From assembly GCA_947631275.1 (NCBI GenBank), contig CANRKR010000001.1, positions 1 to 64,000 of the forward strand: a DNA stretch of 64,000 nt. The letters are read 5' to 3'. Positions 2,041-52,596 of this stretch are shown here, one piece after another. The DNA comes from an uncultured Akkermansia sp. (GTDB lineage: Bacteria > Verrucomicrobiota > Verrucomicrobiia > Verrucomicrobiales > Akkermansiaceae). Below the pieces are notes generated by a model. The model had not been told where the DNA came from and did no database searches. It worked only from the letters and a program-made list of their open reading frames with translations. The position numbers and the translations under genes are program-made. Position 1 is the first letter of the stretch. Each line of letters opens with the position of its first letter.

Positions 2041-2041
2041 A

Positions 2042-29723: not shown

Positions 29724-30835
29724 TTATTTCATCAAATGTTGGACAGTTTTGTGAAGCCAGAATCGTGAATCGCGAACCATAACAATAAGCGCTTTGTCCA
29801 GCAGCCTCAAAGCTTCCGAGAAGATGATGGCAAGCGCTAGGTTGATAGCGAACATGATAGGCAGTTTGATGCCCCACTCCAAGCGAATATACGGGGAAAT
29901 GAGGTGGGAACAGGAAGTGGACACCCCCTGACCGGCGTAGTAGAAAATGGCGTTGCGACCGATATGTTCAAAGAAGCGGTTGCGCAGGGTGTCACTGGCG
30001 AAGAAAATAATAGCAGCCATGGAGAGGCAGGAAGCGGCTATGTAAGGAAGTTTGGTGGGGAATTTATTAATTTGCAGGTTATAAACACTGCTGCCCTCGC
30101 ACAGATAACAGAGGCGGAAAACAATGAAAGCCACGAATGCCAGGAGCACGGCAAATTTTCTTCGCCTGTGAATCTCCACGGGGATGATGTGCTGCTGGCA
30201 CCAGTAGCCAAACAAGTAACTCGCCACCGGGAAGAGCAACATTTGCAAGTCCACACCAAGGAATCGGTACCCCGCAAAATTCAGCACCCCTCCGAACGCC
30301 AGCACGTAGCTGAGTACGATGAGTAAGATGACTTTCGCAAGATACCCCCCCCCGTACTCTTAATGATCACCCCGCCGAGGATGATGGTGCAGGCATAGAC
30401 AGGAACAAACCAGTAGGAACCCGCTGCGGCCCTGAATAGGGGAGAAACGTCGAGCCTTATGAGAAACAGCGGTCTGAAAATCGATGCCCACGTAACTCCT
30501 CCATCAATCAGATTGCATAAGAGCCCCAATAGCACAAATATCATTGAAAGCTTAAAGAGCTGGGTCAGAATGGTGTCCTTCTGAATGTACGCCCTGGTCA
30601 TGCCTGCGATGAAGAAAAACGCCGGCACATCCAACAGCAGCGAGATGGACTTCATCGGCATGGGAACGTATGCCCCACCCGACCAAAAGCATGTGTGAAT
30701 AAACACGATGCTCAAGGCACAGATGCCGCGTACCAGATCAATGTAGTGCGCACGCGGCTTTCTTACGGTTGCGACTGCGGATGCGGGTGCGACGTTTGCC
30801 TCTCCTTCGGGGCTTTCAGAATCCGTTTGTTTCAT
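29724..30835 (-). CDS. Acyltransferase-3-like membrane acyltransferase, frameshifted at G9 (predicted phase OFF)
   Basis: N-terminal YIDLVRGICALSIVFIHTCFW in ORF 30281..31111 (start MKQTDS at 30835) and remainder in ORF 29724..30305; one added G joins them as KSTGGGYLAKVILLIVLSYVLAFGGVLNFAGY. Confidence 0.75.
30345..30353 (-). repeat. Homopolymeric G9 tract (minus strand) in acyltransferase gene
   Basis: Plus strand gata-CCCCCCCCC-gtac. Confidence 0.85.
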
Positions 30836-31212
30836 GGTGCAGAATCTTTGCTGTAAGTTAAAATGATCACTCCCAGGCAAATGACCGCTATCCCGATGCA
30901 TTTTTGAGGAGTGAGCGGCTCGTTCAGGAAGAAATAGGCCAGGACAGCGGTGATGATAAACCCGACACAGGAAAAGGGATAAGCCAGCGATACATTGACC
31001 TTCGAAAGTACCACCATCCACAAAACAAGGGATACGGCGTAGCACAGCATCCCGCCCCAAAGGTACAGATTCGTAAAGAAACTCAAAAGCATGTTCCAGA
31101 GCTGATCCCATTTCAACGTGACCACACCGACTTTGAGCATCCCCTGTCGGACGAATAATTGCGCCAGGGCATTCAGTGCTACACTGGACAAGATCAGCAG
31201 GATGTTTTTCAT
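30832..31212 (-). CDS. Small DMT/EamA-like (ArnE/EmrE-type) four-TM protein, possible lipid-sugar flippase
   Basis: MKNILLILSSVALNALAQLFVRQGML; VNVSLAYPFSCVGFIITAVLAYFFLNEPLTPQKCIGIAVICLGVIIL. Confidence 0.8.
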   Translation of the reverse strand: MKNILLILSSVALNALAQLFVRQGMLKVGVVTLKWDQLWNMLLSFFTNLYLWGGMLCYAVSLVLWMVVLSKVNVSLAYPFSCVGFIITAVLAYFFLNEPLTPQKCIGIAVICLGVIILTYSKDSAP

Positions 31213-31231: not shown

Positions 31232-32098
31232 TTATGCGACGTTGAGGAAGAGCAACAGCACGTAGCCGACAAAGGTGCAGCACGTCAGCAACAGAGCCTT
31301 ATCCTTGTACAGGTTCTCCGTCGGATCCTCCGAACCGTTATACTTGTCCAAAATGTACACGTACCAGAACATCCCGAACACCACAAACACGATGCTGTAG
31401 ACCATGCGGTGCGTGCCAAGGTTAGCCTTTGTATTGGTCTCCATGGTCCAGAGGGCGTAGGACATGATGGTGAGAGCCATCGTGACTGCCAGATAGGCAT
31501 TGAGCATTTCTTTCCCGTACTTTTTGAGCACGGTACGCGATGCCGTTCCATGCCGAAGCAGTTCCCCCTTGCGTTTCGCAAATCCCAAAAAGAGCGATAA
31601 AAACAGCGTCGTCATGAAGATAAAGCTCGATACCGGTTCATGGATGGCATAGGCGCCGGCATACACCCGCAGTACAAATCCTATGGCGATGACAAACACA
31701 TCCAATAGGACGATGTTCTTCAGCTTCCCGGAATAGAGGACGTTGATGAGCAGATAAAGCCCGATGACTCCCGCAACCTTGATATCGCCCAACAGCCAAA
31801 TGAATACCCCCCCCCCGTACAAAAGAAGGAGGGCTGCCACAAGACCTTTTTTCACCGAGATGACTCCGCTGGCTATCGGGCGATATTTCTTTTGAGGATG
31901 CAGGGCATCCTTTTCCCGATCCTGAATATCGTTGACGATGTAGTGGGCGCTGGCGATAAGGCTGAACGCGAGGAAGGCGTAGAGAGCCGACAGGACGGAG
32001 GGGATGTCCGTAAACTGAAAGGAGAACAAGAGAGGCGCAAGGACAAAGGCGTTCTTGACCCACTGCTTGATACGGATAAGTTTCAACCAAGCATTCAT
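31232..32098 (-). CDS. UbiA-family prenyltransferase, decaprenyl-phosphate phosphoribosyltransferase-like
   Basis: RIKQWVKNAFVLAPLLFS, SAHYIVNDIQDREKDALHPQKKYRPIASG; ORF intact with G10 tract. Confidence 0.85.
   Translation of the reverse strand: MNAWLKLIRIKQWVKNAFVLAPLLFSFQFTDIPSVLSALYAFLAFSLIASAHYIVNDIQDREKDALHPQKKYRPIASGVISVKKGLVAALLLLYGGGVFIWLLGDIKVAGVIGLYLLINVLYSGKLKNIVLLDVFVIAIGFVLRVYAGAYAIHEPVSSFIFMTTLFLSLFLGFAKRKGELLRHGTASRTVLKKYGKEMLNAYLAVTMALTIMSYALWTMETNTKANLGTHRMVYSIVFVVFGMFWYVYILDKYNGSEDPTENLYKDKALLLTCCTFVGYVLLLFLNVA
31807..31816 (-). repeat. Homopolymeric G10 tract (minus strand) in UbiA-like gene
   Basis: Plus strand aata-CCCCCCCCCC-gtac; encodes YGGGV. Confidence 0.9.
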
Positions 32099-32586
32099 GA
32101 GACGAGATAGAAATTGATGAGGAGGAGACAGAGACCGGCGTAGATCCCGGCAAAGACGTCATCAAGCATCACGCCCCAGGCGTTGAGCAGCTTTTGATCC
32201 GCCCACTTGGCGGGTTGGGGTTTAACGATGTCGAAGAGCCGGAACAGGAAGAAGCCGGCGATGTACGTCCACCAGGCGTGCAGGTTTTCAACCAGGCAGG
32301 AGCCGACAAAGGCCAAGGTGACCAACTGTCCCACGACCTCATCGATGATGATGAGAGAGGGGTCGTGCTTGGTGTATTTGAGGATTTCTTTGGATGCGAT
32401 GACGCCTATGAAGAAGGTGACAACAGCGGTGAGCAGCAGCCCCCACGTCCCGTAGAAGTAAGCGATGCCGAAGGCGACGGGCAGAGTGGCTGCAGAGCCC
32501 GCGGTTCCGGAGGCAAGGGGGAAAAAGCCAACGCCGAATCCGCTACCGGCTGTGTAACACAGGAAACGATAGATTTTGTTGTTCAT
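32095..32586 (-). CDS. pgpA: Phosphatidylglycerophosphatase A-like protein
   Basis: GSGFGVGFFPLASGTAGSAATLPVAF, SLIIIDEVVGQLVTLAF; ATGA overlaps with both neighbours. Confidence 0.85.
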   Translation of the reverse strand: MNNKIYRFLCYTAGSGFGVGFFPLASGTAGSAATLPVAFGIAYFYGTWGLLLTAVVTFFIGVIASKEILKYTKHDPSLIIIDEVVGQLVTLAFVGSCLVENLHAWWTYIAGFFLFRLFDIVKPQPAKWADQKLLNAWGVMLDDVFAGIYAGLCLLLINFYLVS

Positions 32587-34892
32587 GGCATTTTCTGAAG
32601 TTGTCGGGGAAATTCTTTGGCAAGTTGCTTCTTGCAATTTTCAAGCGCCTTTGCGTCGGTGATGAAAAGGATGATATCTTTCCATACGATGAGCCCGTTC
32701 TCACGGGGCCACACCTGGGCTTTATCCAGGATGCCCGCTTCCCACAGTCGCTTAAGTTGAGTCCTGTACTTGGGATCATTAGGCCGGGTGGGACGAGGGT
32801 ACTCACCTCTAAACTCTGTTTGATAATAAAACTCGTAGGCATGAAACACATCCCAAGTAGCATCATAGCTATATGACAATAGACTGTCTTCACGACCATA
32901 GGACTTTTTTGAATATCCCATTTTCTTATAAAAGTGAGAGCGCAAAGAAATCGGCATACCAATCTGAATAATCTTGTATTTTCGATTCACGTCAAAATCT
33001 TTCTGGATTTCCATGCGTGCCAGCACTCTGTTCCAAAGCATCTTTTCCGCATCGAATCCCAATTTCCAGACACGAAGACAGTCCAAATCATTGATGATAG
33101 ACACCCACACAACTCCTGTCGCCGCAAGAATACTTAAATTGTGCATCTTTTGAAGATTGGTAAATACCAGAACTGTTACAAGTGTTTCAAAAACAACCAA
33201 CCCAAATAATTCTATTCGTGCGACTATAAGGTGCTCATTAGCAATTATCATGACAGTCTGCGTCGCGAAGAGTGCTCCTCCTAGTAAAATTAGTCTGGCA
33301 ATTTTTTGCCTGAAGTTTCCCGTTAGACAAATGTACAGAGTTACAAGAATTGTAAAACCCAAAAAGACCCACAAAACACCTTGAGAGATGAAGGGAAAGC
33401 GATATTCACAAAGTTGATGAAAGCATTGCTTGAATAACGTCCATAATCGATTCGGCAATTGTTCCAAAGGCAGTGTTTGTGTGTTATAATCATTCTTGCT
33501 CATTGGAAAGACAAAAGTGATCATGAACTTGTACAAACCAATGCCTAGGGCGATGCAAATCGCTGGTATTGAAAACGGAATAAAACGAGATTTAAAGTGT
33601 CTCCACGAACCATCCCACTCAAATGATTGGACCAACAACCTACCGATGAAAGCTACGGCAATGGTGTTAAGCAGAACAGGATACATGGCCAACGAAAGAT
33701 TAATTAGGACAATGGAGAAAACAGCAAGGGCAACCTTTCTCGTACGAGAACTTTTATCAAAAGCAACTTTCTCGCCCAAAATAAGAGCAACCAGAGCGAA
33801 GGTAACACCAATGAAAGTCTCGGGAAGCATATGAACATAATACATCATGCTCAATGTGAACGGCTGAGCCGTCAGAATGAGCCCACAGAGGATAAAATAA
33901 GCGACTCGCTTTTCCAGCTTCCAGTAAGTACAAAGCAATACCGCATTCAGTGCGAGGAAGAGGAAAGAGACAACATCGTAGATAAGGGGTAAATAGATGC
34001 CACCAAGAACGCTGTTCTTAATGCCGTACAATGCATACCTCCCGCACCATACAAAAGCCTTCGCACTCCGAAAAGCCAACGCATCTTTCCAGTCATGATT
34101 CCCCCACATGAATTGAATAGCGTGGAACCCGAAGGCAAAGCAGAGCACACCAAAGATAATCCAAAAGGAACGCCGATGAACTACGTCAATATTTCTGTAG
34201 GTTTCCGCGATTACTTGAACGATATCCTTTTTGTTGAGTTCGGTGACTAGTCGTTTTAGAATATCAAAACAGGAGGCAAAACCGAATTTAAGGCGTATGA
34301 GCAAAATAAGCAACAAGAAGCAAGCCATGAATAACCCAATAACACGCTCCCATCTGATGTCTATGAAGGCGAACGGCTTCCGAATGTCAAAGCTCAATGT
34401 GACCATCGAGTTGTCAGAAATGTTCTTTGCGCAGTACCGGAACGGCTTGTCATGCCAAACTGTTTGTTCCTCTGCAATAGTTTTCCCATTAACTCGTATA
34501 TTTTCAAAACAGACGTAGGCAGGCTTCCTCTGGTTATGAATCCGTAAATCAGGCCCGCGAAAATTCATTTCCAAAGACATTTCTCGAGCATCCCCTCGAG
34601 GCTTCAGTGTTATTTTGTATGTCTTTTTCAGGTAGGAAACAGGGAATGAAACCATGGCCCCCTGGTTGTGGCGGTTATCCAACAACCATATGGGCTCATA
34701 CGCTCGAACGTTATCACCACGAACCTCCAAACATCCATCTTGGACATCCCCGGAAAAGGCAACGTCCACTCGACCAACATTACCTTGAAACGTCCACAGG
34801 GCATCGCCTTTCAAAAAGGCGCTCGGGAATAGGGAGCAGAGCACAACACTAATACCCAAACCTCCCAACAATGCTTTTATCATCTTTTTCAT
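32583..34892 (-). CDS. GtrII-type polytopic glycosyltransferase with N-terminal RGPD...WHDKP domain
   Basis: AIQFMWGNHDWKDALAF followed by many TM segments; N-terminal domain shared with two GT C-termini. Confidence 0.7.
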   Translation of the reverse strand: MKKMIKALLGGLGISVVLCSLFPSAFLKGDALWTFQGNVGRVDVAFSGDVQDGCLEVRGDNVRAYEPIWLLDNRHNQGAMVSFPVSYLKKTYKITLKPRGDAREMSLEMNFRGPDLRIHNQRKPAYVCFENIRVNGKTIAEEQTVWHDKPFRYCAKNISDNSMVTLSFDIRKPFAFIDIRWERVIGLFMACFLLLILLIRLKFGFASCFDILKRLVTELNKKDIVQVIAETYRNIDVVHRRSFWIIFGVLCFAFGFHAIQFMWGNHDWKDALAFRSAKAFVWCGRYALYGIKNSVLGGIYLPLIYDVVSFLFLALNAVLLCTYWKLEKRVAYFILCGLILTAQPFTLSMMYYVHMLPETFIGVTFALVALILGEKVAFDKSSRTRKVALAVFSIVLINLSLAMYPVLLNTIAVAFIGRLLVQSFEWDGSWRHFKSRFIPFSIPAICIALGIGLYKFMITFVFPMSKNDYNTQTLPLEQLPNRLWTLFKQCFHQLCEYRFPFISQGVLWVFLGFTILVTLYICLTGNFRQKIARLILLGGALFATQTVMIIANEHLIVARIELFGLVVFETLVTVLVFTNLQKMHNLSILAATGVVWVSIINDLDCLRVWKLGFDAEKMLWNRVLARMEIQKDFDVNRKYKIIQIGMPISLRSHFYKKMGYSKKSYGREDSLLSYSYDATWDVFHAYEFYYQTEFRGEYPRPTRPNDPKYRTQLKRLWEAGILDKAQVWPRENGLIVWKDIILFITDAKALENCKKQLAKEFPRQLQKMP

Positions 34893-34916: not shown

Positions 34917-37712
34917 TCATAAATGGAAGGAGACTGCCCTGCGGTTCGCGTTTACGGACGTTTCCTCTCCCACAAAATTACCTGTCAAACCACGAAAAGC
35001 ATACCTCTCACCACTCTGATTCACACGGATGAGACTCTCCAGTGCTTCCTGAGCATTAACTCCCCTTTTGCACAAAGACGTAAAGAGATGATAAAACTCA
35101 CCCTTGATATCCGTGGCGAAAACGCCTGGGTCATCCGTTCCTAGTACGACAAGAGGAGGAGCGTCCCCTTCGCACGGGTTGACTCCAAGCCACCTCAGTG
35201 AATGATGCTGTCCCATCTCCTTATATTGCCCAATACGTAAATTACTCGTGGGGAGAGTCTCCACCACAATTGATTTTTCTACCAGCTTGCACATCGCTAG
35301 TTGCTGCAGTATCGTCAAGATATCTTCAGAGAAATAATTGGAGGGAACTTCAATACGCACCTGACTTCTTTCCCAAGTTTCTCTGTCACGCTGCCATTTG
35401 ATGAGCAGCTCTATCACCTTCGGAGCCTCTCGGCAAAGGGCTTGGCAGATTCGAATTTCCTCTATCCGTTGAGGATCGACATGCCTTGTAGAAGATAAAA
35501 TCCTTCGAATGACTTCTTTTGTTAGCTGAGATTCATCGATTTTTTCCACAGGTTGTGTGTCTCTCGTGCGAGAATCATTGGTTCTCCATAAAGCTTCCTC
35601 ATACATATCCCTCAACAACAGGGGATCTAGGCAACGGAGAGCAAAAATTCGTTTCAAGAGATGAGGAGAAGGATTCAGCTCCCGAAAAATTTGATAGCCA
35701 AGCTCTCGGATATCGTTACTGAGGCGATTCACCACATGCCCCATACCCTCTCGTTGCTGCAGGATGTCCCAAGCGAAAAGCAGATTCAGCAGCCACTCCT
35801 CACGCGAGGGGGCAATTTGCATAGGCATGCTGTTGAGCCACAGCGTGGGATTCACACCCAGAGCCGTGGCGTGCCCGATGCGATCTCCTCCGCGCAGTTC
35901 GAGAAAATCTACGGCTTCGCATACGGCGCGAATACCGCTGACAAGATGACAGAAATCTTCTCCGGCATGATAGGTAGCGTGTGGAAGATTCAACTCGTAG
36001 CGTGCCTTCCTATAAGCCGGAGCAAACACATCGGGCGGCGTGTCCAGTTCATAAGCGGCGGCATCCACACCGCGAATCCATTTTAAAAGTTTAGGGTGCG
36101 CTTCCAACAGCATACGCACATTTTCTAAATCCCTTTCGTATCTTTTTCTCTGGCAATCAAAACGGATTTGATCTACTCCGGTCTTGTTGTGTTCAGCCGG
36201 TTTCCAGGAACGTTTAATGAAATGTACAACAATCGAAGGTCGTACGAGTCGGTTGCGAGTTTGCAACAACTCATCATCAATTTCTTTCAAAACTGTGTCC
36301 AACTCAGCCCTCAATCTTACATCCGGTTCTTTTCCATGATGATCATATCGGCGTGCTTCCATGCATCGAAGTAACTGCTCCTCCTCCGCTACATGATTCT
36401 CGTCTTTATAGTGACGAACATATTCCAAGTACCCCCATAGGATCGTAAGAATTTTGCGCTGAAGCTCATTTATATTGGATGTCGGCGATATTCTCAACTC
36501 AACGTAGTTGGTGACACTCTCTCTTTCGGAACCGTGCATACGCTCAAAAATTCCCCTGAAATAGCATGGCTGGGAAACGAGGAGTTTTTGCACCGAGGAG
36601 TAACGTTGGAACTGCCTGAAACCCACAAAATTGTCCCGCTGCACACAGAGCATGTAAAATTCGTTCGTAAGGAGAATGTAAAGCAGGAGCGCCCTATCGA
36701 TGAGATGATGCGGGGAGCATCTCTGCTTCTCAAGCACTTTCATCATCCATTGCAATTCTCTCATCGTATTCGGCAGCCTCTCCTTATCTCCTCCATCCCC
36801 GAGTGGTATTTCAAATAATTTCTGTGCCTTCGTCTTCTTCCACGCTTGTGGCGGTATCCTACTTAACGCAGCCAAAACTCCCTCAGGCTCTATACAAGAA
36901 GATTCCTCCTTTTCCGTCTCACTATCGCTCCATGGGATCTTTTCTTCTCGGGCATAATTGATCAAAATGTACCTAAGAGCCTTTGCTATCTCCATGTGAT
37001 CCTCCATTGCTTCCGGTGTCAGATCGCTATGAATGAACCTGTAAAGACGAGGGATCTCATCACCTTCTCTAAAATTCTCACTTTGAAGTTTCCATTCTTC
37101 ATCGGTATGATCCAAGGCGTGCAACCAACATTCTTCGGCATACGCACATAAGTTGGCGTGTACGTGCGAATCGTTCAACCCATGTCGCATGATGTAATTT
37201 TCGACTCCTTCATCGTAGGGATAAAGTTGTTTGAACTTTCGTTGTATCGGCGGGGTCGGTTGGGTATATTTTGCTTCCAGTTTCAGGTACGCCCATGCCA
37301 AGACCGGCAGTGGGGACAAGCGGCTGAGCATATTCTGCCACCAGCCGAACTTCTCCGTTTTAATGTACAACTCGTTATTGCGCACAGTGAGGTACTCATC
37401 CATTAAGCATTGCAACGACGCCAACACAATACTCGGTTTCCTATCGCTCCCTTCAGGTGCTACATATTCCCACTCGTATCGCAATTCACGGTTCTTCTGC
37501 TTTATGTAATCGTACTCGAATTTTTCCCACCTATGCTGGAACACATGGTCCGGACGTGTGCTGTTCCACCTATGAAAGTCCAGATGCACAAATTCCAGTA
37601 GAAAGTTTCTCTTCCCCAAGGTAAGCTCCGTATTTAAGGACTGCTTAAGCAACCACATAAGTAGATGCTCATTGGCTAATACGTACGCTGGTATGGTCGA
37701 AACCTCAGCCAT
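34917..37712 (-). CDS. rdrB: RADAR adenosine deaminase RdrB-like protein
   Basis: 931 aa with dispersed ADA active-site motifs DSHVHANL (HxH), ATYHAGED, DRIGHATALG, VLGTDDPGVFATDIKGEF; next to RdrA-like ATPase. Confidence 0.85.
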   Translation of the reverse strand: MAEVSTIPAYVLANEHLLMWLLKQSLNTELTLGKRNFLLEFVHLDFHRWNSTRPDHVFQHRWEKFEYDYIKQKNRELRYEWEYVAPEGSDRKPSIVLASLQCLMDEYLTVRNNELYIKTEKFGWWQNMLSRLSPLPVLAWAYLKLEAKYTQPTPPIQRKFKQLYPYDEGVENYIMRHGLNDSHVHANLCAYAEECWLHALDHTDEEWKLQSENFREGDEIPRLYRFIHSDLTPEAMEDHMEIAKALRYILINYAREEKIPWSDSETEKEESSCIEPEGVLAALSRIPPQAWKKTKAQKLFEIPLGDGGDKERLPNTMRELQWMMKVLEKQRCSPHHLIDRALLLYILLTNEFYMLCVQRDNFVGFRQFQRYSSVQKLLVSQPCYFRGIFERMHGSERESVTNYVELRISPTSNINELQRKILTILWGYLEYVRHYKDENHVAEEEQLLRCMEARRYDHHGKEPDVRLRAELDTVLKEIDDELLQTRNRLVRPSIVVHFIKRSWKPAEHNKTGVDQIRFDCQRKRYERDLENVRMLLEAHPKLLKWIRGVDAAAYELDTPPDVFAPAYRKARYELNLPHATYHAGEDFCHLVSGIRAVCEAVDFLELRGGDRIGHATALGVNPTLWLNSMPMQIAPSREEWLLNLLFAWDILQQREGMGHVVNRLSNDIRELGYQIFRELNPSPHLLKRIFALRCLDPLLLRDMYEEALWRTNDSRTRDTQPVEKIDESQLTKEVIRRILSSTRHVDPQRIEEIRICQALCREAPKVIELLIKWQRDRETWERSQVRIEVPSNYFSEDILTILQQLAMCKLVEKSIVVETLPTSNLRIGQYKEMGQHHSLRWLGVNPCEGDAPPLVVLGTDDPGVFATDIKGEFYHLFTSLCKRGVNAQEALESLIRVNQSGERYAFRGLTGNFVGEETSVNANRRAVSFHL

Positions 37713-37723
37713 AAATGCTTAAT

Positions 37724-40471
37724 CTACGAGATGAGTTCCTTTGCGGGTGTAGGCTTTTTTGTGTGTGCAGCATTCTTTGTAGATGTAGCCTTCTTTGTAG
37801 ATGTAGCCTTCTTTGTAGATGTAGACTTCTTTGTAGATGTAGACTTCTTTGTAGATGTAGACTTCTTTGTAGATGTAGCCTTCTTTGTAGATGCAGCCTT
37901 CTTTGTAGATGCAGCCTTCTTCGCGGGTGTAGCTTTCCCTGCGGGAGTGGACCCGATATCTATACCGAAATCCTCAGTCAGAGGGAATTTGCCAATCTTT
38001 TGTATAAAAAAGCGAGTCGCACTAGTACGTGAATTTTTTTTACTTTCTGTATATTCCACAAATTTTTTTATTGCTTTCTGAAAAACTTGCAAATACGATT
38101 TCGGTTTTATTTTCCCCGAAAAACCATGAGGAGGAAAACTAGTTTGCTGGGCAATCTTCTCAGTTACTATGTTACTAATCGCACGTAATTGATTATAAAA
38201 ATTGGACCATATTTCTGCCATTACGTGAGGACCGATATTATCATTCCTTTGCATAGTCTGTCCTTCGTCTTTTTTCATAGTTAGATACCATTCTGTTATA
38301 TCCTTCATTATAGATAGAATGGTCGTGGACTTGACCCCTTTTGGCCAGAAAAATTCGTTATCTATTTCTATTATTTCATCATTTTCAATGTTTTTGGTCC
38401 TATCCTCGATTTGCCATTCTGGACAGCTACACGATTTAATAGGTGTGTATGATTTGGTTAAATCAAAGAGCTCATTGATGGCCTTTTTTTTGAACTCGTT
38501 TTCATTATTTTTGCATGACTTCATCGTCCGATCGCAACATTCAACGCTGCGGAGTATGTATGCCAGATAGCTATAAATAGATATGTAGTAACTGTTGTCG
38601 CGCGTGTCTGATTTATTCATGCTGACAATCAGAGACAAGGATTTTTTATATTCGGAAACAGACTTGTCTTTTTTTGATATGTACATATTGATTTTTTTTA
38701 TTAGTTTTGAATTGTGTATTCTAATGATGCCCGAATGAACATGATATCCATCTGAGTCCCGACACCAAATCATATTAGCATGTCGAGCCCAACGCGAAGG
38801 ACTTTGCCAATTTCCAACACGAAGGTATTCTTCGAAGCTTTTTCGCAAATCCTTTTGAGTTTCGAATACAGAATCGCCACTGTTCCCTGCGCTTTTAAAT
38901 TGTGCCAAAGCCTTCGCATATAGAGCCACTGAAGCGGGTCCATAAAATAAATAGGATAAAAAACCTTTGAGATCCTTAACATACCTCTTAAAATTTGCTG
39001 CTAGGACAAGCGTTAAAAATCTATACCTGGAATCTTTATCAACATCATTAGACAAATAAAACCCATGTTCCAAGTCTCCCGTATCTTGGCAAAGACGCAG
39101 AAGCAAAGCGTAATAAGCCCGTCCATCATCCGAGTCTAGGGCTTCATAATTGTAGGACCAGTCCGGCAATTGATCACGTAAAGAGCGATTTAAAGCTGTC
39201 CTAACAAGGAACTGTATATGCTCCTTACTCTTTCTTATTCTCTCAATGTCACTTTTTGTCGTGCGTTGTTTTTGCCCTTTTTGAAGATTAATTTCCTTCA
39301 ACCTTTCCCATATTTCTTCTCGTATCCAATAGTCTAAAATCTGAATAATGTTACGGAGAGGAAGAGATAAAAATGTATTTGCATATGCCTCCGCTTCATC
39401 ATATTCTATACTTATGGCATTATGAAATATGTCTTCTAGTTTGTCTTTCAAAAGAGTAGTGTCATTCCTACTCTTTAGTTTTATATTGACGGGGTTCCTC
39501 TTATGTGATAGAGTATACAGACTCCTTAATTCAAACTGCTGTTTCAAAGGAAAAAGTTTTGCAAAGTACTGAGCCGCATGAGACACGATATAACTGAGTC
39601 GTTCCTCCTTCCCTTGCTCGTCACATTTGTGATATTTGTAATCATACTCTTTAAAAAATCGCTCTCGCACACGCTCAATATTAATAGTCCGATCCCCTGC
39701 CATCAAGACAGTCAAATACTCGTTGGATATAAAAAGTCTCAAATTTTCAAGCACATTGTAACATTGCTCAGTTCGTATATCGATATCGTCAACAACAAGA
39801 ACGAAGGCATCAACGCCATACAATCCGCATAGAAGCTTCATACACTCCTCGAAATTTTTCTTAATCTCCTTGTTCATCTCCGGATCATCGATGCGTAAAT
39901 TGGCAGCTCTATGTTCACTCAACCCGCTCAACGCCTCGCGTTCCTGCGAAAATCGCACGATGGCCTTGTCAAGCTTCTGCATTACACTTTGAAGCATCAA
40001 TACATCATCATATTTGGGAGAGTACCGCTTGGTATTCTCAGAAAACTCTTCCACCTTTGTCTTGATCGCAGCTACAACCTCAATGAAAAAATCTGCAGGG
40101 ACACCGAAGGATTCGGAAGGGTCGTACCAGTGTAGAAATTTGATATTCATGCCATTACGATCACCATTCTCCAATTTTTTCACCACTTGTCTCAGGAAGG
40201 TCGTTTTCCCGCTTCCTCGTTTTCCAGTGATTAAATAATTGATTGGGAACTCATCATTCTCTATGAGCCCTTTGATAACCGAGTCAGACCTTTTCCCTTC
40301 TCTCCTCTGTTTTGCTAGTGATACACCTTCGTGTATCAGGTTGACAATTTTGTTAAGGAGCTGTTTATGAATCACTCCAAGAATTTCTTCTTTATTTACT
40401 ATGCTCGAAGTCAAATCTTCACAGTCCAGTATGACTACGTTTTCGGTTTCTTGTCTTTTGGTATTCATCAT
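37724..40471 (-). CDS. rdrA: RADAR ATPase RdrA-like protein with Lys-rich repeat tail
   Basis: 915 aa; Walker A ITGKRGSGKTTFLRQ, Walker B FVLVVDDIDI, MAGDRTIN; 11 bp upstream of rdrB-like gene. Confidence 0.85.
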   Translation of the reverse strand: MMNTKRQETENVVILDCEDLTSSIVNKEEILGVIHKQLLNKIVNLIHEGVSLAKQRREGKRSDSVIKGLIENDEFPINYLITGKRGSGKTTFLRQVVKKLENGDRNGMNIKFLHWYDPSESFGVPADFFIEVVAAIKTKVEEFSENTKRYSPKYDDVLMLQSVMQKLDKAIVRFSQEREALSGLSEHRAANLRIDDPEMNKEIKKNFEECMKLLCGLYGVDAFVLVVDDIDIRTEQCYNVLENLRLFISNEYLTVLMAGDRTINIERVRERFFKEYDYKYHKCDEQGKEERLSYIVSHAAQYFAKLFPLKQQFELRSLYTLSHKRNPVNIKLKSRNDTTLLKDKLEDIFHNAISIEYDEAEAYANTFLSLPLRNIIQILDYWIREEIWERLKEINLQKGQKQRTTKSDIERIRKSKEHIQFLVRTALNRSLRDQLPDWSYNYEALDSDDGRAYYALLLRLCQDTGDLEHGFYLSNDVDKDSRYRFLTLVLAANFKRYVKDLKGFLSYLFYGPASVALYAKALAQFKSAGNSGDSVFETQKDLRKSFEEYLRVGNWQSPSRWARHANMIWCRDSDGYHVHSGIIRIHNSKLIKKINMYISKKDKSVSEYKKSLSLIVSMNKSDTRDNSYYISIYSYLAYILRSVECCDRTMKSCKNNENEFKKKAINELFDLTKSYTPIKSCSCPEWQIEDRTKNIENDEIIEIDNEFFWPKGVKSTTILSIMKDITEWYLTMKKDEGQTMQRNDNIGPHVMAEIWSNFYNQLRAISNIVTEKIAQQTSFPPHGFSGKIKPKSYLQVFQKAIKKFVEYTESKKNSRTSATRFFIQKIGKFPLTEDFGIDIGSTPAGKATPAKKAASTKKAASTKKATSTKKSTSTKKSTSTKKSTSTKKATSTKKATSTKNAAHTKKPTPAKELIS
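37771..37932 (-). repeat. 18-bp in-frame tandem repeat (8 near-perfect units plus degenerate edges) encoding (A/S)TSTKK at the RdrA C-terminus
   Basis: Plus-strand unit [c/a][c/a]ttctttgtagatg[t/c]ag repeated from 37771. Confidence 0.95.
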
Positions 40472-40506: not shown

Positions 40507-42090
40507 TCAGCGTTTTGTGTTCGTTTCAATGCTATGGAAATGGGGAGAGGGAAGAGTTATTGCTATCAATTTCACATCCATGAAAGCACGTCCGTTTCGG
40601 AGGGAATCCCATAATACTTTTGTCAAGTCGGAGCCTGATTCAACGTGCAGAAGGGAAGCAATCCGCCCTGCGGGGACGTGCTCTCTTATCAACGTTTCCT
40701 GTGTCGCATTTTGAACGACAAAATGCACTTTGGAGGCTTCCTCCTGAACAATTTCCTGTAACCGTTGTTTGCCGGAATCCCGGGAAGCCGTCAGGTCAAA
40801 AACGCAGCACACCCGCTGGGAGTCTCGCATCGAAATCTTGTTCCTGATGTAACTCAAATAGAATAACACAGAATCTGATAATGAAGGCTCTGCGGATATG
40901 GGAATCCCCATGATAGAACGCCTTTTGTATCCCCCTGTAAATTTGATTTTCTCATACGGGATGCCCAGGATCTGCTTCACTTCCCGCTCCGAAGAATAAC
41001 GATGCTTCCACAAAGGAACTCCCAGAAAGCGGAATTGTATCGCGTTAGAGCTTATCCGCATACCAGACAGGCGTTTCGCTTGCAGAATCCGGCAGACCGC
41101 CTCGTAGTTGTGATTGCTGATAAAGTGTGCGATAAAATAATACGGAGGGGAATACCTTTTCAGGAATTCCTGCACAGCAGGGTCGTTGTCAAAGTGATTC
41201 TTGATATATTGCTTGATGAAATCGAAGAAAAAGCGCTTCTTTTCTTCACCCGTGACGCCATACGTCTTCAGGTGCCATATATAGGAAAACAGGATCACAG
41301 CTCTGAAGCCTGTCTCGCAGGAGGAAAACGCCGGGTATTGCCGACATCTCTCGAAGGAGTATTCGTACGCTTGGATGACACAGGACAAATCTTCCCCTTT
41401 CGTCAACCTCGTGTTTCCCCTGCGGTTGTAACGATAGGAATAGTAAGCCTTGTTATGCACCATCATCCGATCAGCAGCTATAGCAACCTCATAGGCAAAG
41501 CTCGCATCGTTTGTGTTTTGAATCGTCTGGAAACGAATCTGGTTTTTGATCAAAAATTCTCTTCGATATATTTTGTTGAAAGGATAAACAATCAAGCCCC
41601 ATATAAAATCTCCTAAATCTCTCGCATTGAAAATTTTACCCCTAAGGAAATCATTAACAAACAACTTCGAAAAAGGTCCCTCATAACTCTTTCTTTGTCC
41701 GGAATCGTTATAAAAGCCGCAGAGGAGGACATCTAATCCGTACTCTTGAGCAAGAGCGTAGAGTTCCTCGAGCATGGTCGCATCACAGTAATCGTCCGGG
41801 TCGAAAAACACAACCCATTCGCCCACGGCATGGTCAAACCCTGTATTACGTGCGGAGCCGGCAAATGAATGCTCATCCTGGAAGAGCCGGATGCGAGCAT
41901 CTTTTGCCATGAACTCGCGGATAATGCCCACCGATGCATCCGAAGAGCCATCATCCACACAAATAACCTCAAACTCCCGCAGGGTCTGGTTCAGCAGACA
42001 AGACAGCGAATGCTTCAGGTAAGCTGCCACATTGTAAACGGGCAGAATAATTGAAACTTTCGGAGTAGATGGAAGATTATTCGGAATCAT
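40507..42090 (-). CDS. Glycosyltransferase family 2
   Basis: PKVSIILPVYNVAAYLKHSLSCLLNQTLREFEVICVDDGSSDASVGI, FFDPDD. Confidence 0.9.
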   Translation of the reverse strand: MIPNNLPSTPKVSIILPVYNVAAYLKHSLSCLLNQTLREFEVICVDDGSSDASVGIIREFMAKDARIRLFQDEHSFAGSARNTGFDHAVGEWVVFFDPDDYCDATMLEELYALAQEYGLDVLLCGFYNDSGQRKSYEGPFSKLFVNDFLRGKIFNARDLGDFIWGLIVYPFNKIYRREFLIKNQIRFQTIQNTNDASFAYEVAIAADRMMVHNKAYYSYRYNRRGNTRLTKGEDLSCVIQAYEYSFERCRQYPAFSSCETGFRAVILFSYIWHLKTYGVTGEEKKRFFFDFIKQYIKNHFDNDPAVQEFLKRYSPPYYFIAHFISNHNYEAVCRILQAKRLSGMRISSNAIQFRFLGVPLWKHRYSSEREVKQILGIPYEKIKFTGGYKRRSIMGIPISAEPSLSDSVLFYLSYIRNKISMRDSQRVCCVFDLTASRDSGKQRLQEIVQEEASKVHFVVQNATQETLIREHVPAGRIASLLHVESGSDLTKVLWDSLRNGRAFMDVKLIAITLPSPHFHSIETNTKR

Positions 42091-42160
42091 GCCGTACGGA
42101 TGTTTGCCTCGTCGATGTTTATTTCTTTACATTCTGCGGAAGCTTCGTTCCTATCAGGGT

Positions 42161-42955
42161 TCACAGGTAGCCAGCAAAGGAGCGGCTCGCACTCACGATG
42201 TAGGCTTGTCTCTTAATGCCAAAGCGTTCAAAGGTTTGAAAAGCGATCGATTTTTTCCTCAATGCTGCTTGTGTCCTTTTGATTGTATTTTTCTCTCCCA
42301 CACGCTCAGCATCGTCAAAAATAATCACGAAATCCTCTGCCAAATTCCCATGTCCGATCAAATCCACCACGTTGGAGCGCGGCAGATTCTTTCCTCCTCC
42401 CACAGGACCATCCACAATAATCAAATCAAACTTTTGGTCTCCCACCAGTTCCAACAAGCCTGCATATTTGTCATTCCTCTTGCGTCGGTACTCAAAATAT
42501 TCTAAATCGAGGTGGTTGACACAGATGTGCTCATGCTTCGGCAACTCCGGCTGATAAATCTTGATCCAATCGAGGCTGTGCTCGCATACGTTGAGGTAAG
42601 CCTCGGGATTTTTGTACGCAATGTACTGCGTCGTCAACTTCGTCGTCTGCCCCAAACCGAACTCAAGGATGTTTCGTGGCTCAATCTTGTCCAGGATGCG
42701 GAACAACAGGTAGATAAAGCTGTAATTGGCTGCCCAGTTGTGCAAGTCAAAAGTCCGGTTCTTCACCCATGAGCTTTCCTCCATACCGTCATGCAAGAGA
42801 TGAGCGTAATTCAATTCCTTCAGCTCGTTGTAGCAAAGATCCAGCTTCTGCTCCACGGCAGCGAGCCGTTGCTCGTGCCGGCGAGCTAACTCCAGCAAAG
42901 TTGCCTGTTTTTCCTCGGAAGAGCTGATGCTTCCTTTTAATGGATTATTTTGCAT
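42161..42955 (-). CDS. SAM-dependent methyltransferase-like protein
   Basis: NILEFGLGQTTKLTTQYIAYKNP, KFDLIIVDGPVGGGKNLPRSNVVDLI. Confidence 0.6.
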   Translation of the reverse strand: MQNNPLKGSISSSEEKQATLLELARRHEQRLAAVEQKLDLCYNELKELNYAHLLHDGMEESSWVKNRTFDLHNWAANYSFIYLLFRILDKIEPRNILEFGLGQTTKLTTQYIAYKNPEAYLNVCEHSLDWIKIYQPELPKHEHICVNHLDLEYFEYRRKRNDKYAGLLELVGDQKFDLIIVDGPVGGGKNLPRSNVVDLIGHGNLAEDFVIIFDDAERVGEKNTIKRTQAALRKKSIAFQTFERFGIKRQAYIVSASRSFAGYL

Positions 42956-45900
42956 GGTAGATTATTTTCTCAATTATGTCTGTTAGCACATCAATATTCT
43001 CTGAAATCACTTCCGAAGTCGGGTTGAGTTTCAAGATTATTCCCTTCAATTCTTCTCGAGAGTAGGGATGCGTCTGTCGTTCATATTCGACCCATACCTC
43101 TTGTCCGTCTTTCACGGGCATTTCATAGTACCACGGTTTGTCGTGCCACACCGCAATAGGTGAGGAGAGAATCTCCTTTCCGTCAATTTTGATGGATTTA
43201 TAGTCAATCCATACCGGGAACCTGTTGCCTTCAAATCGCATGTCAGGTCCCCGAAAATTAATTGAAAGCTTTCCGTTTTGAATGACAGAAATCTTTATTT
43301 TTCCCTCGCTCGCTGCGCTTGTCAGAACTCTCCCCTCGCCCTGTGTATTCCTGAACCAGCTTGGGGAGGTGATCTTACTACCCTGAGCTTCAATTGTAAC
43401 GGTGTTATCCTTATTCCCTAGGTTCTTTATATCTACGCGCAAGACATCCATTCTTGCCCAAATATATCGACCGAGACGACGAGTCAAGGCTTTGTAATTA
43501 AGCAAAACACGAGGTAACGATAGGAAAGCTATAAGGAGATGGGCATCTAAGTAACTCGAAAAATGACAAGAAGTCTTACCGTATTTAGCAATTAATTTCT
43601 TTATTGCCAAATCATATGTCTTCTCTTCTGTTTCTCTCCTATGAGCATGGTACATATTTAGGCACCGTACCAGATAATCTTTTTTGTAGTTGTTGTAAAT
43701 TAGTCCATCAATATGAATATTTTTTAAATATCCCAACACTATATCCGTTACCTCAAAGAAATCCACAAAATGTTTGTTCAAATTCTGCGATGTAGAATCC
43801 TTACGAATCCTTCGTCTGTAATACTCTTCGGAATCAATAGAAACCCGAGCAGCCTTCGTCAAAGATTTCACCAAAAACACATCGTCTCCATAATGTAAAC
43901 TGGGAGGAAATTCGACGTTATATTTTTTGAGGAAGGCGTTCCGATACAGCGTTAAACATGGACTCACCGGTATTTTGCATGCGTTCTCTTTAAGACTTCG
44001 CAAACTAAATATCTTTTTTCCTTTCAAGGACGATAATATTGCTCCATGTGTCCAGTAGGAATTTTCCTGCCTGACTCGGGGCGTCTCTGTAAAATCGTAC
44101 CCTGAAAAACACAGCATGTCTAAATCATTTCCTCTTGCATTTTTATATAATTTCTCGCAAGTATCTTCCCTGATTAAGTCATCGGAATCGACGAACTGAA
44201 CGTACTCCCCGCGTGCTAATTTCAACGCCGTATTCCGAGAGCAGGCCAGTCCCTGATTTTTCTGATTCATCAGGATAACTCGCCTATCTTTTTGGGCATA
44301 CTCCTCCAAAATCTCCAAGGAGCCATCGGTAGAACCGTCGTTGACACAAATAATTTCTATCTCTTTGAGAGTTTGATGGACAATGCTATCCATACAATCT
44401 TGCAAATACTTTTCAGCATTGAAGACACATACAATAATTGAGATTTTTTTCTTGTTAAATCTGTCCAGAAAAAAGTTGAGCGGTTTGTTGTCGGTGTTGT
44501 ACAAGTTTCCACTATGGCTCAATTGTGAGAAGTGGAAATAGTCATCGGGTGTGTAATTTTCAACAAAAGAATATAACAAATTAAGGACGGCTTCTTTATC
44601 CAAGAGCACGTCGTCCTCGGGAAAATGTTGAGCAAACTTCTTGGCGAACCCTAAAATGCCCCCTGCCATTTTTGAATAAATGTCACATCTTTCCCGTTCG
44701 AGAGTAGAACAATCTGTAAATACCGGTCGGTTATTGCTCAGCATGTTAACAGGGGCTGTGGGCGCAGAGATTAATGTTTCCACTAAGAAATTAATTCCCT
44801 CCACTCGATGAGGACGACCCCAAATTGCATGATACGGGATTTTGTCATCTTCTGTCTTGTTGGCCAACCAATATATTCCTCTCAGCGTTTTTCCGTTGAG
44901 CAGGTTCGTCAAATACTTTTGTGCCGTACAATTTATTGTTGTTAAATCAACAAGACCTATGACTTTACCGCGTATACCTTGGTTGTCTAAGTATGATCGA
45001 TACTGTTCACTTGCATCCGATGCATTTAAGTTTTTAATCAACCCTCTTGAAGCATAGATGTAATGCGTTTTTACAGGCTTCTCTGAAAGGAGATTGTAAA
45101 CTTTTTCTAAAATGTATCCGTCTCTGGCGATAAATAACAATTCTTCGATGCCGTGTTCCTTTATGTTTCTCTCGACAAATTGAGTCATCAGAACAGCTAT
45201 CGGACCGCCAAGAGCGTATCCTATATTATACCAATAATCTCTCGGGGATATGCACCTGAGCAGAGATAGTAAAACTGAAACGGATAATGAGTTTTTTCTA
45301 TTTGCATAGCTTGTTATATATGGCTCAATTGCATTGCTTTTATATCTTCTTAGAAAAAAAGCCTTAATGCCTAACCCTTTCGGCACAAGCCAATCTGATT
45401 GTTCGTTGTCACCGACATGAAACAATTCACTTGGTTTAATTTTTAAATCATCACATACATATTTAAACAGGTTCCCGGTTCTCTTTGTCTTCTTGACTTC
45501 ACTTGACAAGTAAATTTTATCGTAGCCTTCAATCCCCCTTTCACTTAAAATGTCAGAAATAACAGACCTGCTCAAATACATATCTGACGTCAGCACGATT
45601 TTTGTCCCGGCTTTTCTAAAATAATCAAAAAGGTACTTAGTTTTTTCGTTTACAAAGAGCTTTTCTTTTTCTAGCTCTACTTCTTTTTGCATCAAAAATT
45701 GCACATCTGAAGGCATCAAGGCATATATATCGCCCAATGTGATTTCTTCTCCTTCTTTAATTTTTGTACGTGCAAGCTTTTCCGCGTTCATTCTTATTCC
45801 TGCAAAATCCTTCTTGACATACTTTTCCTCCAGATGCAGGAATAAGTCAGAAGGCTTATTGTAAGGTCTGAACAACAACGTGTCAAATATGTCAAAAGAA

Positions 45901-47030
45901 ACCACCTTACACGCAGACTCATCATATGCCTTAATAATCTGAGTGACATCATCTTCTACGGGAAACAAGTGAACTAATTCTTTATACTTTTCTGCTAAAT
46001 CCTGGCTGAGAAAGTAACTATCAGGTAAATTTAGAGGAAGATCAAAAAGGTTTGCCTTGACGACAGCATCCACCAACTGTTTCTTTGAATCAGGATTGTC
46101 TATAATCCTGATATTCCAGGCAAGATGATTACAGCATAAATTGACAAAACTTCGCTTATATACCTCGTATATTTTTTCTTCCTTTAACCTGTTTTGGAGC
46201 CCTTGAAGGACGTAATAGATGTTGAGAGACGCCGAATTACGAGTCTCCTTCGCCGTTAATGTGCTTCCTGAATTGGTTCTGTAATGCAGCAGCACCCTTT
46301 TTATCACCGATATGCGCCGTGCTAAGGCCAAACTAACACAGACAAAATAAGTGTCATTGGTGTGCTTTATACTCTGGTAGCGTATATGGAATTGATTAAC
46401 GAACTCTCTCCTGAATAATTTGTTCCATGGCCAATTGTTGGTTATGTTGAAAATACAATCACACACTTCCCGTGGGCTAAATTCATTCTTCCTGGGAAGG
46501 AGATGTTCATTGAGTATCCATCGTGGAGATTCAAATTTTTTCGTTTGATTGTTATAGAAATTGACATTATATATCACGACATCAGAATCGCTTTTCCTTG
46601 CCGTGCGATATGCCTCCTCCAACATATCTTTTTCGAAGAAATCGTCAGCATCCAAAAAACTTAAGTACTCTCCTCTTGCAACCGCGAGTCCTGCGTTACG
46701 TGCCACGCCCGCATACAAATTGCTCTGGGTTAAAATCGTGATTCTCCTATCTTTCCTTGCGTATTCCTTTAAAATTTCCAACGAGGCATCCGTGGATCCA
46801 TCATTGACGCAAATAATTTCTATTTCCTTGAGAGTTTGTCCGATAAGACTTCCCAAGCATTCTCGCAAATAGTCCCCCGCATTATACACGGGTATAATGA
46901 TGGACACCTTTGGCACATACCCAATCTCATTTTGCACAATGATTCGTGTCGTCGTGACTGCTTCTCCCCTCGCATTTTGAACCTGAATGGTTCCAGCCTC
47001 TGTAGTCTGTGGTTTTATATTATGATCCAT
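42945..47030 (-). CDS. Multidomain glycosyltransferase: GT2 - HAD-like - GT2 - RGPD/WHDKP C-terminal domain
   Basis: Two GT2 domains (PKVSIIIPVYN..., KISIIVCVFN...), HAD-like VVSFDIFDTLLFRP and LFHVGDNEQSDWLVPKGLGIKAFFL, shared C-terminal module. Confidence 0.85.
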   Translation of the reverse strand: MDHNIKPQTTEAGTIQVQNARGEAVTTTRIIVQNEIGYVPKVSIIIPVYNAGDYLRECLGSLIGQTLKEIEIICVNDGSTDASLEILKEYARKDRRITILTQSNLYAGVARNAGLAVARGEYLSFLDADDFFEKDMLEEAYRTARKSDSDVVIYNVNFYNNQTKKFESPRWILNEHLLPRKNEFSPREVCDCIFNITNNWPWNKLFRREFVNQFHIRYQSIKHTNDTYFVCVSLALARRISVIKRVLLHYRTNSGSTLTAKETRNSASLNIYYVLQGLQNRLKEEKIYEVYKRSFVNLCCNHLAWNIRIIDNPDSKKQLVDAVVKANLFDLPLNLPDSYFLSQDLAEKYKELVHLFPVEDDVTQIIKAYDESACKVVSFDIFDTLLFRPYNKPSDLFLHLEEKYVKKDFAGIRMNAEKLARTKIKEGEEITLGDIYALMPSDVQFLMQKEVELEKEKLFVNEKTKYLFDYFRKAGTKIVLTSDMYLSRSVISDILSERGIEGYDKIYLSSEVKKTKRTGNLFKYVCDDLKIKPSELFHVGDNEQSDWLVPKGLGIKAFFLRRYKSNAIEPYITSYANRKNSLSVSVLLSLLRCISPRDYWYNIGYALGGPIAVLMTQFVERNIKEHGIEELLFIARDGYILEKVYNLLSEKPVKTHYIYASRGLIKNLNASDASEQYRSYLDNQGIRGKVIGLVDLTTINCTAQKYLTNLLNGKTLRGIYWLANKTEDDKIPYHAIWGRPHRVEGINFLVETLISAPTAPVNMLSNNRPVFTDCSTLERERCDIYSKMAGGILGFAKKFAQHFPEDDVLLDKEAVLNLLYSFVENYTPDDYFHFSQLSHSGNLYNTDNKPLNFFLDRFNKKKISIIVCVFNAEKYLQDCMDSIVHQTLKEIEIICVNDGSTDGSLEILEEYAQKDRRVILMNQKNQGLACSRNTALKLARGEYVQFVDSDDLIREDTCEKLYKNARGNDLDMLCFSGYDFTETPRVRQENSYWTHGAILSSLKGKKIFSLRSLKENACKIPVSPCLTLYRNAFLKKYNVEFPPSLHYGDDVFLVKSLTKAARVSIDSEEYYRRRIRKDSTSQNLNKHFVDFFEVTDIVLGYLKNIHIDGLIYNNYKKDYLVRCLNMYHAHRRETEEKTYDLAIKKLIAKYGKTSCHFSSYLDAHLLIAFLSLPRVLLNYKALTRRLGRYIWARMDVLRVDIKNLGNKDNTVTIEAQGSKITSPSWFRNTQGEGRVLTSAASEGKIKISVIQNGKLSINFRGPDMRFEGNRFPVWIDYKSIKIDGKEILSSPIAVWHDKPWYYEMPVKDGQEVWVEYERQTHPYSREELKGIILKLNPTSEVISENIDVLTDIIEKIIYHAK

Positions 47031-47084
47031 CTCTTCTGTTCCCTTCTGCTACGCTATGCTCATCTCTCCCTTCGCCCTCTTTTG

Positions 47085-49619: not shown

Positions 49620-49681
49620 CTCTTTTTGATCCGATCCCTCCTATTTCGCAATACCTGTCCTTTCCTTCACGTTTTTCTCTA

Positions 49682-49948
49682 TCATAAGTCTTTTTTCAGT
49701 CTTTCAATCTCTGCCTCCAAGCGCTCGCATTCTTCCTGCAAGCGTATCGGATACTCCAGCACGTATTTTATCCTCTCTCCCAGCCCCATTTTCGCACCGC
49801 GTTTCTCGATTTCAGCGGGACAAGGCATGCCCCATCTTACCAGCTTTTTCGCGTACTTGTGTCCACTAATAAGGCGCAATTTGTAGAGCAGCCAATACCT
49901 GAGTCGCCTAGCTTTGCTGATTTTTTTCGTTTTTTTGTTTGTATCCAT
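49682..49948 (-). CDS. Small coiled-coil hypothetical protein
   Basis: 88 aa ending RLQEECERLEAEIERLKKDL. Confidence 0.45.
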   Translation of the reverse strand: MDTNKKTKKISKARRLRYWLLYKLRLISGHKYAKKLVRWGMPCPAEIEKRGAKMGLGERIKYVLEYPIRLQEECERLEAEIERLKKDL

Positions 49949-50010
49949 GGTTCTCGTTCTCTGTAAAATGTCAACTGGGGAACTTCTTCAGACTGTCTGC
50001 TCCTCCTTCA

Positions 50011-51264
50011 TCATCGTTTCTTGAAAAAGCGGAAGTCTAATATGTGGTGCGAGCGCAGCCCACTTGCCACTCGTTTCCAATCCGCTGCATCAAACTGCGG
50101 CCATTCCGTGAGAATAACCAATACATCGGCTCCAAGCGCTGCGCTGTACATATCCGGCGCGTATTGAACGCTGTCGCCCAAGATGCGCCGCGCCGTTGTC
50201 ATGGCTTGCGGGTCGTAGACGCACACGTCCACGTGGTGACTCGCCAGTCGCTGCACAATCTCCACGGCGGGACTTTCCCGGCAGTCGTCCGTCCCCTCCT
50301 TGAAGGCCAGTCCCCAGATGGCGATCTTCGGAGAGGGCACATCTTCCACCTCTTTCAGGATGCGCTGCGCCATGTGTTCACGGCGCTTTTTGTTCCCCTT
50401 GATGGCAGCACGGATAAGCGAGAGCTCCACCCCCAGTTTGCGCGCCATGTGTTCGATGGCCTTTGTGTCCTTCGGGAAGCAGGATCCGCCGTAGCCCGGT
50501 CCGGGTTTGAGGAAAGCCGGGCCGATGCGCGAGTCCAGACCCATGCCCTGCGCCACCTCGTGGATGTTGGCTCCCGCCGCTTCGCAGAAGTCCGCCATCT
50601 CGTTGATGTAATGGATCTTCACCGCCAGGAAAGCATTGGAGGCGTATTTGATGGCCTCCGAGGAACGGCGCGCCACGAAGAGAAATCTGGGAGCATTGGG
50701 CAGAGGGGCGTAGAGCTCGCGAATCAGCTCGCGGGCTTTCTGCGATTGCGTACCCACCACGATGCGCACCGGATGAAAAAAGTCATGCACAGCGTAGCCT
50801 TCTCTCAGAAACTCCGGCAGGGAGATTACCTCGACCCGCGCCTTCGGGTTGCTCTTACGGATGAGTTTTTCGACTTCATCCCCCGTCCCCACCGGTACCG
50901 TGGACTTGACCGCTACAACGGCATCCGTCGGCAAAAAGGGCGCCATCTCCCTCACCGCTCCGAACAGGTAGGAGAGATTGGCTTCACCCGTGGCAGGATT
51001 CTCGGGCGTCCCGACCGCCAACATCACGATTCGCGCTCCGCTCACGCCTTCTTTCATGTCATCCGTGAAAGTCAGTCGTCCGGACTCCAGCTCGGTCTTC
51101 AAAAACTCCTCGAGTCCCTCTTCAAACAGCGTCGTCTGCCCGGCTCGCAGCTTCTCCACCTTCTCGTGGTCGCAATCAATGCAGCTGACATCGTGACCAA
51201 GCCTCGCCAGTCCCGCTCCCGTGGGAAGCCCCACATATCCTGTCCCAATTACAGATATTTTCAT
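50011..51264 (-). CDS. UDP-glucose 6-dehydrogenase family
   Basis: MKISVIGTGYVGLPTGAGLARLGHDV, LPEFLREGYAVHDFFHPVRIVVG, GPGYGGSCFPKDTKA. Confidence 0.93.
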   Translation of the reverse strand: MKISVIGTGYVGLPTGAGLARLGHDVSCIDCDHEKVEKLRAGQTTLFEEGLEEFLKTELESGRLTFTDDMKEGVSGARIVMLAVGTPENPATGEANLSYLFGAVREMAPFLPTDAVVAVKSTVPVGTGDEVEKLIRKSNPKARVEVISLPEFLREGYAVHDFFHPVRIVVGTQSQKARELIRELYAPLPNAPRFLFVARRSSEAIKYASNAFLAVKIHYINEMADFCEAAGANIHEVAQGMGLDSRIGPAFLKPGPGYGGSCFPKDTKAIEHMARKLGVELSLIRAAIKGNKKRREHMAQRILKEVEDVPSPKIAIWGLAFKEGTDDCRESPAVEIVQRLASHHVDVCVYDPQAMTTARRILGDSVQYAPDMYSAALGADVLVILTEWPQFDAADWKRVASGLRSHHILDFRFFKKR

Positions 51265-51276
51265 AATAATTAGCCA

Positions 51277-52215: not shown

Positions 52216-52218
52216 AAC

Positions 52219-52596
52219 TCACACCTCCTCATCAATGCTCCAATGAATGTCCCACGTTCCGTCGCGCTGTTGCCTCAACGCATACGCCATGCACAAACCG
52301 CTCGGCTTGTCGTCGTTGATGAGGATACGCTCTCCCACGGGCGCTCCGCAGATGAGCCAATCGTAGCGGATTCCTTCTCGATGCAAAAAGTCTTCCAATG
52401 CTGCCCTGTGTTCCTCCTTGCGACTCGTGATGAGCACCACCATGTCCCCCTCCGGCAATTGAGCAAAAAACTCCTTCACCCCCGGCAGCAGGGTGTCTCC
52501 GCCGTGCAGGTGCCCGTTGTGCACGCAGAGCGTACCGTCCACATCCAGAATCCAGGTGTGGGGCAGAGGAGAGAGGGTGAGAGAGTCGGGGGTCAT
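52219..52596 (-). CDS. HAD-like hydrolase of the capsule-biosynthesis phosphatase type
   Basis: WILDVDGTLCVHNGH, VVLITSRKEEHR, ILINDDKPSG; ATGA overlap with upstream gene. Confidence 0.75.
   Translation of the reverse strand: MTPDSLTLSPLPHTWILDVDGTLCVHNGHLHGGDTLLPGVKEFFAQLPEGDMVVLITSRKEEHRAALEDFLHREGIRYDWLICGAPVGERILINDDKPSGLCMAYALRQQRDGTWDIHWSIDEEV

Follow-up and report, generated by a model that had tools for sequence, protein, structure and literature searches.

A poly-G tract as a candidate phase-variation switch of a UbiA-type phosphoribosyltransferase gene in a glycan-decoration cassette of rabbit-gut Akkermansia

Can a run of ten guanines inside one gene turn a surface sugar on and off in an uncultured Akkermansia of the rabbit gut? 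The question was raised by the 64,000-nucleotide stretch of DNA analyzed here (the window), in which an initial annotation had placed a poly-G(10) run inside a UbiA-family gene, predicted the gene to be ON, and proposed that slippage in the run switches it. We consider it probable that the run is a contingency (phase-variation) tract acting by slipped-strand mispairing on a committed donor-making step.

Position of the tract and identity of the enzyme

The ubiA gene occupies positions 31232..32098 of the minus strand and encodes an intact protein of 288 aa. The tract was found at 31807..31816 on the minus strand (C10 on the plus strand), where it spans codons 95-97 and reaches one base into codon 98, encoding Gly95-Gly97 and opening the Val98 codon. 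As assembled, the repeat lies in frame within the ORF, which bears out the predicted ON state. Translation of length variants gave 288 aa for G10, 125 aa for G9, and 153 aa for G11; gain or loss of one G thus leads to a frameshift and truncation, as the annotation had expected. It had also taken an alternate ORF at 31638..32165 for the truncated outcome. This was correct only for the part running from the tract to the stop at 31638, which is the tail read after a +1 shift (G11); the whole ORF, with its TTG start, was rejected as a truncated UbiA product. A genome search returned one match only, and ubiA is therefore single-copy in its own assembly.

The assignment of the protein as decaprenyl-phosphate phosphoribosyltransferase-like was upheld by profile, sequence, and fold. 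UbiA matched PF01040 and scored 254.3 bits against NCBIfam NF008977 (decaprenyl-phosphate phosphoribosyltransferase; cut-off 234), and its best solved structure by sequence was Mycobacterium tuberculosis Rv3806c (PDB 8j8j, E 2.7e-28). The AlphaFold2 model (pLDDT 88, pTM 0.84) had the same structure as its top Foldseek match (TM 0.82). The NDxxDxxxD motif and residues N56, D57, D60, D64, K127, D133, R144, K175, and R176 were invariant across 28 UbiA homologues. According to the homologue alignment and the model, the tract falls in TM3 (helix 82-103), where conservation is low; K127, D133, R144, K175, and R176 are all C-terminal of it and would be lost or out of frame when the gene is OFF. We infer that UbiA is a polyprenyl-phosphate 5-phosphoribosyltransferase (PPPRS/DPPRS-like) with PRPP-dependent activity. 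A PF01565 search of its own genome, a MAG consensus that is 95.66% complete, retrieved only a GlcD-like protein and MurC/MurB, and no DprE1; arabinose was rejected as the product for this MAG on these grounds, and ribose or an SDR-derived pentose would be expected.

The surrounding cassette and its predicted pathway

On the minus strand, ubiA is the third of five genes, in the order GtrII-family GT-C, PgpA-family phosphatase, UbiA, SMR/ArnEF-like protein, and Acyl_transf_3 acyltransferase. The GT-C glycosyltransferase (32583..34892, minus strand; PF14264, 56 bits), encoded in a gene order that is kept in relatives, is a candidate pentofuranosyltransferase. The PgpA-family protein (32095..32586, minus strand; PF04608, 132 bits) is a candidate 5'-phosphatase of lipid-linked phosphoribose, and its stop overlaps the ubiA start codon (ATGA). 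The small SMR/EamA membrane protein (30832..31212, minus strand, with its start at 31212) is, from profile matches, ArnE/ArnF-like and a candidate flippase of lipid-linked pentose. The acyltransferase gene (29724..30835, minus strand) is frameshifted at a tract of its own and is predicted to be OFF. Four-base overlaps link PgpA to UbiA and, judging from coordinates, GT-C to PgpA and SMR to acyltransferase, and about 20 nt separate UbiA from SMR. A lipid-linked donor synthase, a flippase candidate, and a GT-C enzyme are thus encoded in one tightly spaced row, and this spacing suggests that UbiA truncation may be polar on the downstream SMR and acyltransferase genes.

The same cassette order is common to Akkermansia relatives and gut Alphaproteobacteria. 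The relatives carry one to three copies at different sites, ending in an acyltransferase or an SDR epimerase, and the three alphaproteobacterial loci (L042-L044) contain PgpA-UbiA-SMR clusters without the tract, at least two of them with a GT-C gene before and an SDR-like gene after. This distribution bears on the phosphatase step. The PgpA protein might instead be a housekeeping phosphatidylglycerophosphatase outside the pentose pathway, a reading that concerns this step alone and that we regard as rather unlikely; it is the sole PgpA found in its own genome, as such a role would predict, but PgpA is encoded together with UbiA and SMR across the cassettes, also where a genome has several copies of them, and in Alphaproteobacteria as well.

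Directly upstream of the cassette, PADLOC matched RdrA/RdrB (RADAR anti-phage defence), a KAP-type ATPase and adenosine-deaminase pair at 34917-40471 (minus strand). A glycan gene cluster at 40507-54158 (minus strand) encodes several GT2 proteins, a TupA-like ATP-grasp protein, a UDP-glucose dehydrogenase, and a nucleotidyltransferase/phosphotransferase; a domain of two of these GT2 proteins is also found in the N-terminal region of the GT-C encoded by the cassette.

In the three-component pentofuranose pathway (Kelly 2024; PMC11127046), PRPP is used to form lipid-linked ribose, which is dephosphorylated, flipped, and transferred by a GT-C enzyme to an already polymerised glycan, with optional SDR epimerisation. 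The Citrobacter youngae O1/O2 systems described there share with the cassette a UbiA-type polyprenyl phosphoribose synthase, a flippase, a GT-C, and an optional SDR epimerase. In the prototype, however, a fused HAD domain serves as phosphatase, a MATE protein as flippase, and a GT136 enzyme as GT-C, whereas the window offers PgpA, SMR, and GtrII-family GT-C candidates together with a putatively phase-variable acyltransferase; Pfam returned GtrII and SMR/EamA matches in place of GT136 GT-C and MATE. The arabinan donor pathway of M. tuberculosis (Rv3806c/Rv3807c/Rv3789) is similar in its UbiA-type PRTase, separate phosphatase, and SMR transporter, and differs in the DprE1 step that has no match in the MAG. 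By analogy, the cassette is best read as a gene set for a three-component system of pentofuranose side-chain addition, not of the Citrobacter subtype, and a pentofuranose side chain is predicted.

According to the proposed mechanism, slipped-strand mispairing during replication would add or remove G's in the ubiA tract. The gene would be ON at G10 or at lengths differing by 3, and OFF when the product is cut short to about 125 or 153 aa, ahead of most of the conserved residues. In ON cells, UbiA would make a lipid-linked ribose donor, PgpA would probably remove the 5'-phosphate, the SMR protein would flip the polyprenyl-P-pentose, and the GT-C enzyme would transfer a pentofuranose onto a glycan of the cell surface. 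In OFF cells the pentose side chain would be missing, and expression of the SMR and acyltransferase genes may suffer. The annotation went too far in expecting switching to alter the entire downstream glycan; in the pathway that the cassette resembles, the lipid-linked pentose decorates a glycan that is already polymerised (PMC11127046), so only the side-chain sugar would be expected to be lost.

The acyltransferase is predicted from sequence to be a second, independently switched gene of the cassette. Its poly-G(9) tract (30345..30353, minus strand) is out of frame, leaving a product of 184 aa as assembled, compared to 380-394 aa for intact homologues in relatives; the tract is in frame, as G10 or CG9, in L032, L033, L034, L037, and L038. 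Outside the rabbit species, the acyltransferase had no match at E 1e-10. The acyltransferase gene of L041 is frameshifted elsewhere, at about position 1070, where a CG dinucleotide repeat and not the poly-G tract is changed.

A further locus of the genome, on contig C4, carries an SDR epimerase gene (81% identical) beside a second SMR gene, with no UbiA, PgpA, GT-C, or tract. With ubiA single-copy in the assembly, any pentose donor for this locus would come from the window's UbiA. We tentatively suggest, as a possibility that is more doubtful than the switch itself, that the two tracts form a combinatorial, two-bit switch within a glycan-decoration cassette that is spreading: the ubiA tract would gate the lipid-linked pentose and the acyltransferase tract its acylation, and the single ubiA would also supply the tract-free SMR-SDR-epimerase locus in trans, such that one poly-G run would gate two branches of surface pentose chemistry.

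Tract excess, tract maintenance, and alternative explanations

The ubiA tract is longer than chance predicts. The length distribution of C/G runs in the window contained none longer than 6 until three of 9, 9, and 10, and none of 100 dinucleotide shuffles of the window matched the observed number of 9-mers. G/C runs in the 2.115-Mb genome numbered 73 at length 7, 20 at length 8, and 31 at length 9 or longer (inventory from pattern searches and fetched regions); extrapolating the 7-to-8 ratio gave an expectation of ~7.5 runs of at least 9, an about fourfold excess genome-wide. Runs of this length occurred in all 59 sampled genus members, at 2 to 49 per genome. Very probably, this genome has several switches of the kind, the ubiA tract among them.

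Other genes with tracts were observed. An MmeI-like type IIG/IIL restriction-modification gene (2038-4923, plus strand) contains a C9 tract at 2103-2111 that puts the upstream ATG (2038 or 2043) out of frame with the long MmeI-like ORF; it is predicted to be OFF and is a candidate phase-variable R-M enzyme. In a repeated family, the members share an N-terminus that resembles a signal peptide (PPPxxLLLAYxK...) and carries a poly-C tract ranging from C9 to C21, the scanned members being ankyrin-repeat or Sel1-repeat proteins; the family looks from these features like a phase-variable secreted-protein family (contigs C6, C31, C32, C44, C46, C52, C59, C72, C79, with two loci, and C101 of the same genome, G000; L095, L104, L105, L107-L109, L111, L114, L115, and L117), and contig C52 ends inside its C21 tract. 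G9 tracts were also noted in two genes for AlgX-like SGNH acetyltransferases (L113:1345-3042 and L116:1325-3233, on contigs C70 and C99 of G000); the reading frame is kept in one of them, and the other looks split at its tract.

The ubiA gene is present in 7 of 77 Akkermansia species genomes. Within the named collection, UbiA relatives at 95-98% protein identity were found only in rabbit ('Lapin') Akkermansia MAGs; the next relatives, at 57-60% identity, belong to gut Alphaproteobacteria. An exact G10 was present in nine UbiA copies of five MAGs, namely the window and eight sister copies (L032, L034, and L040 of G077; L033 of G076; L035 and L038 of G063; L036 and L037 of G015). In these nine genes, GGG accounts for 27 of 27 Gly codons within the tract versus 32 of 142 other Gly codons, and the third base varies at 11 of 14 other invariant Gly positions, although the copies are related and the counts not independent. 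Synonymous positions flanking the tract also differ among the nine copies while G10 stays constant. In other phyla, UbiA homologues have no GGG motif at this position, which indicates that protein function does not demand the tract. The idea that the tract is an ancestral feature of the enzyme was rejected, the alphaproteobacterial and more distant homologues being tract-free.

Two further copies depart from G10. The UbiA copy of MAG G024 (L041/L074) has G9, out of frame; it lies 20 nt from the start of its contig and may reflect a misassembly. It is the only one of ten tract-bearing copies that is not in frame. The copy of MAG G008 (L039/L073) has no tract and shows a ~60-nt patch at 58% identity versus about 92% around it. 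The tree places it among tract-bearing copies, with weak support, and loss of the tract by segment replacement is likely from the alignment. The replaced segment (nt about 241-310 of this copy) is sharply bounded, and the allele is possibly locked ON.

The tract could be a passive run of three GGG Gly codons, inherited among recent duplicates and never selected as a switch. The close relationship of the copies, which would hold the tract in common by descent, and the fact that nearly all are ON fit this explanation, but the tract is constant where synonymous sites nearby and elsewhere vary, homologues do without GGG there, runs of at least 9 are in excess across the genome, and the same operon contains a second tract with an OFF allele. 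We therefore judge a passive origin improbable. Two points nevertheless count against a switch: with nine of ten copies ON, switching may be rare or the OFF state selected against, and in several relatives with two or three cassettes one OFF ubiA would be masked.

Sequencing or assembly errors at homopolymers would account for the length differences, that is, the G9 of G024 and the frameshifted acyltransferase of the window. All data are MAG consensus sequences and the G9 copy lies at a contig start; against this, G10 recurs exactly in nine ubiA copies, and acyltransferase alleles differ at flanking bases too (CG9 versus G10) yet keep the frame. Errors would moreover touch only the polymorphism and not the tract itself, and we consider this explanation quite improbable. 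Long homopolymers can also slip during transcription, and a tract that causes RNA-polymerase or ribosomal slippage would yield both frames in every cell, giving tuning and not switching. The G9/G10 difference sits at the DNA level, as does the proven precedent in the genus (PMC13055324), which makes such slippage very improbable here. Slipped-strand switching at the DNA level, as the annotation proposed, is supported by the excess of tracts, the retention of G10 in paralogues despite synonymous change, the one G9 allele, and the adjoining acyltransferase tract that is OFF here and ON in relatives.

Relation to known phase variation and significance

In 2011, Amuc_1413 and Amuc_2098 were put forward as Akkermansia genes subject to homopolymer phase variation (PMC3048395). 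For Amuc_1413 of A. muciniphila, a change from G9 to G10 was reported in 2026 to go with loss of mucin binding, and mixed read fractions were measured (PMC13055324). Like the ubiA tract, that of Amuc_1413 is a poly-G run in an Akkermansia gene concerned with surface glycans, and a one-G change truncates the protein; the species and the gene, which acts in exopolysaccharide export/biosynthesis, are different. Amuc_2098 (C10 tract; PMC3048395, PMC13343947) is, like the second tract of the window, a glycan-locus acyltransferase with a poly-G/C run, but it belongs to the cps1 capsule locus and its phase variation has only been proposed; the cps1 capsule relies on an invertible element (PMC13343947). 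The literature searched yielded no report of a UbiA or PPPRS that is phase-variable, which is not proof of absence. Poly-G phase variation is thus already known in Akkermansia, and the finding is moderately novel in that a committed donor step and an acyltransferase appear to be separately switchable in one small cassette.

With this locus, poly-G phase variation in Akkermansia, so far reported for single genes, would extend to an entire pathway of sugar decoration. The switched point would be the committed donor-making step, which appears single-copy in its own genome, and not a glycosyltransferase. Akkermansia surface glycans affect mucus binding (PMC13055324, PMC13343947), and altered targeting by phages or by the immune system would be a plausible result.
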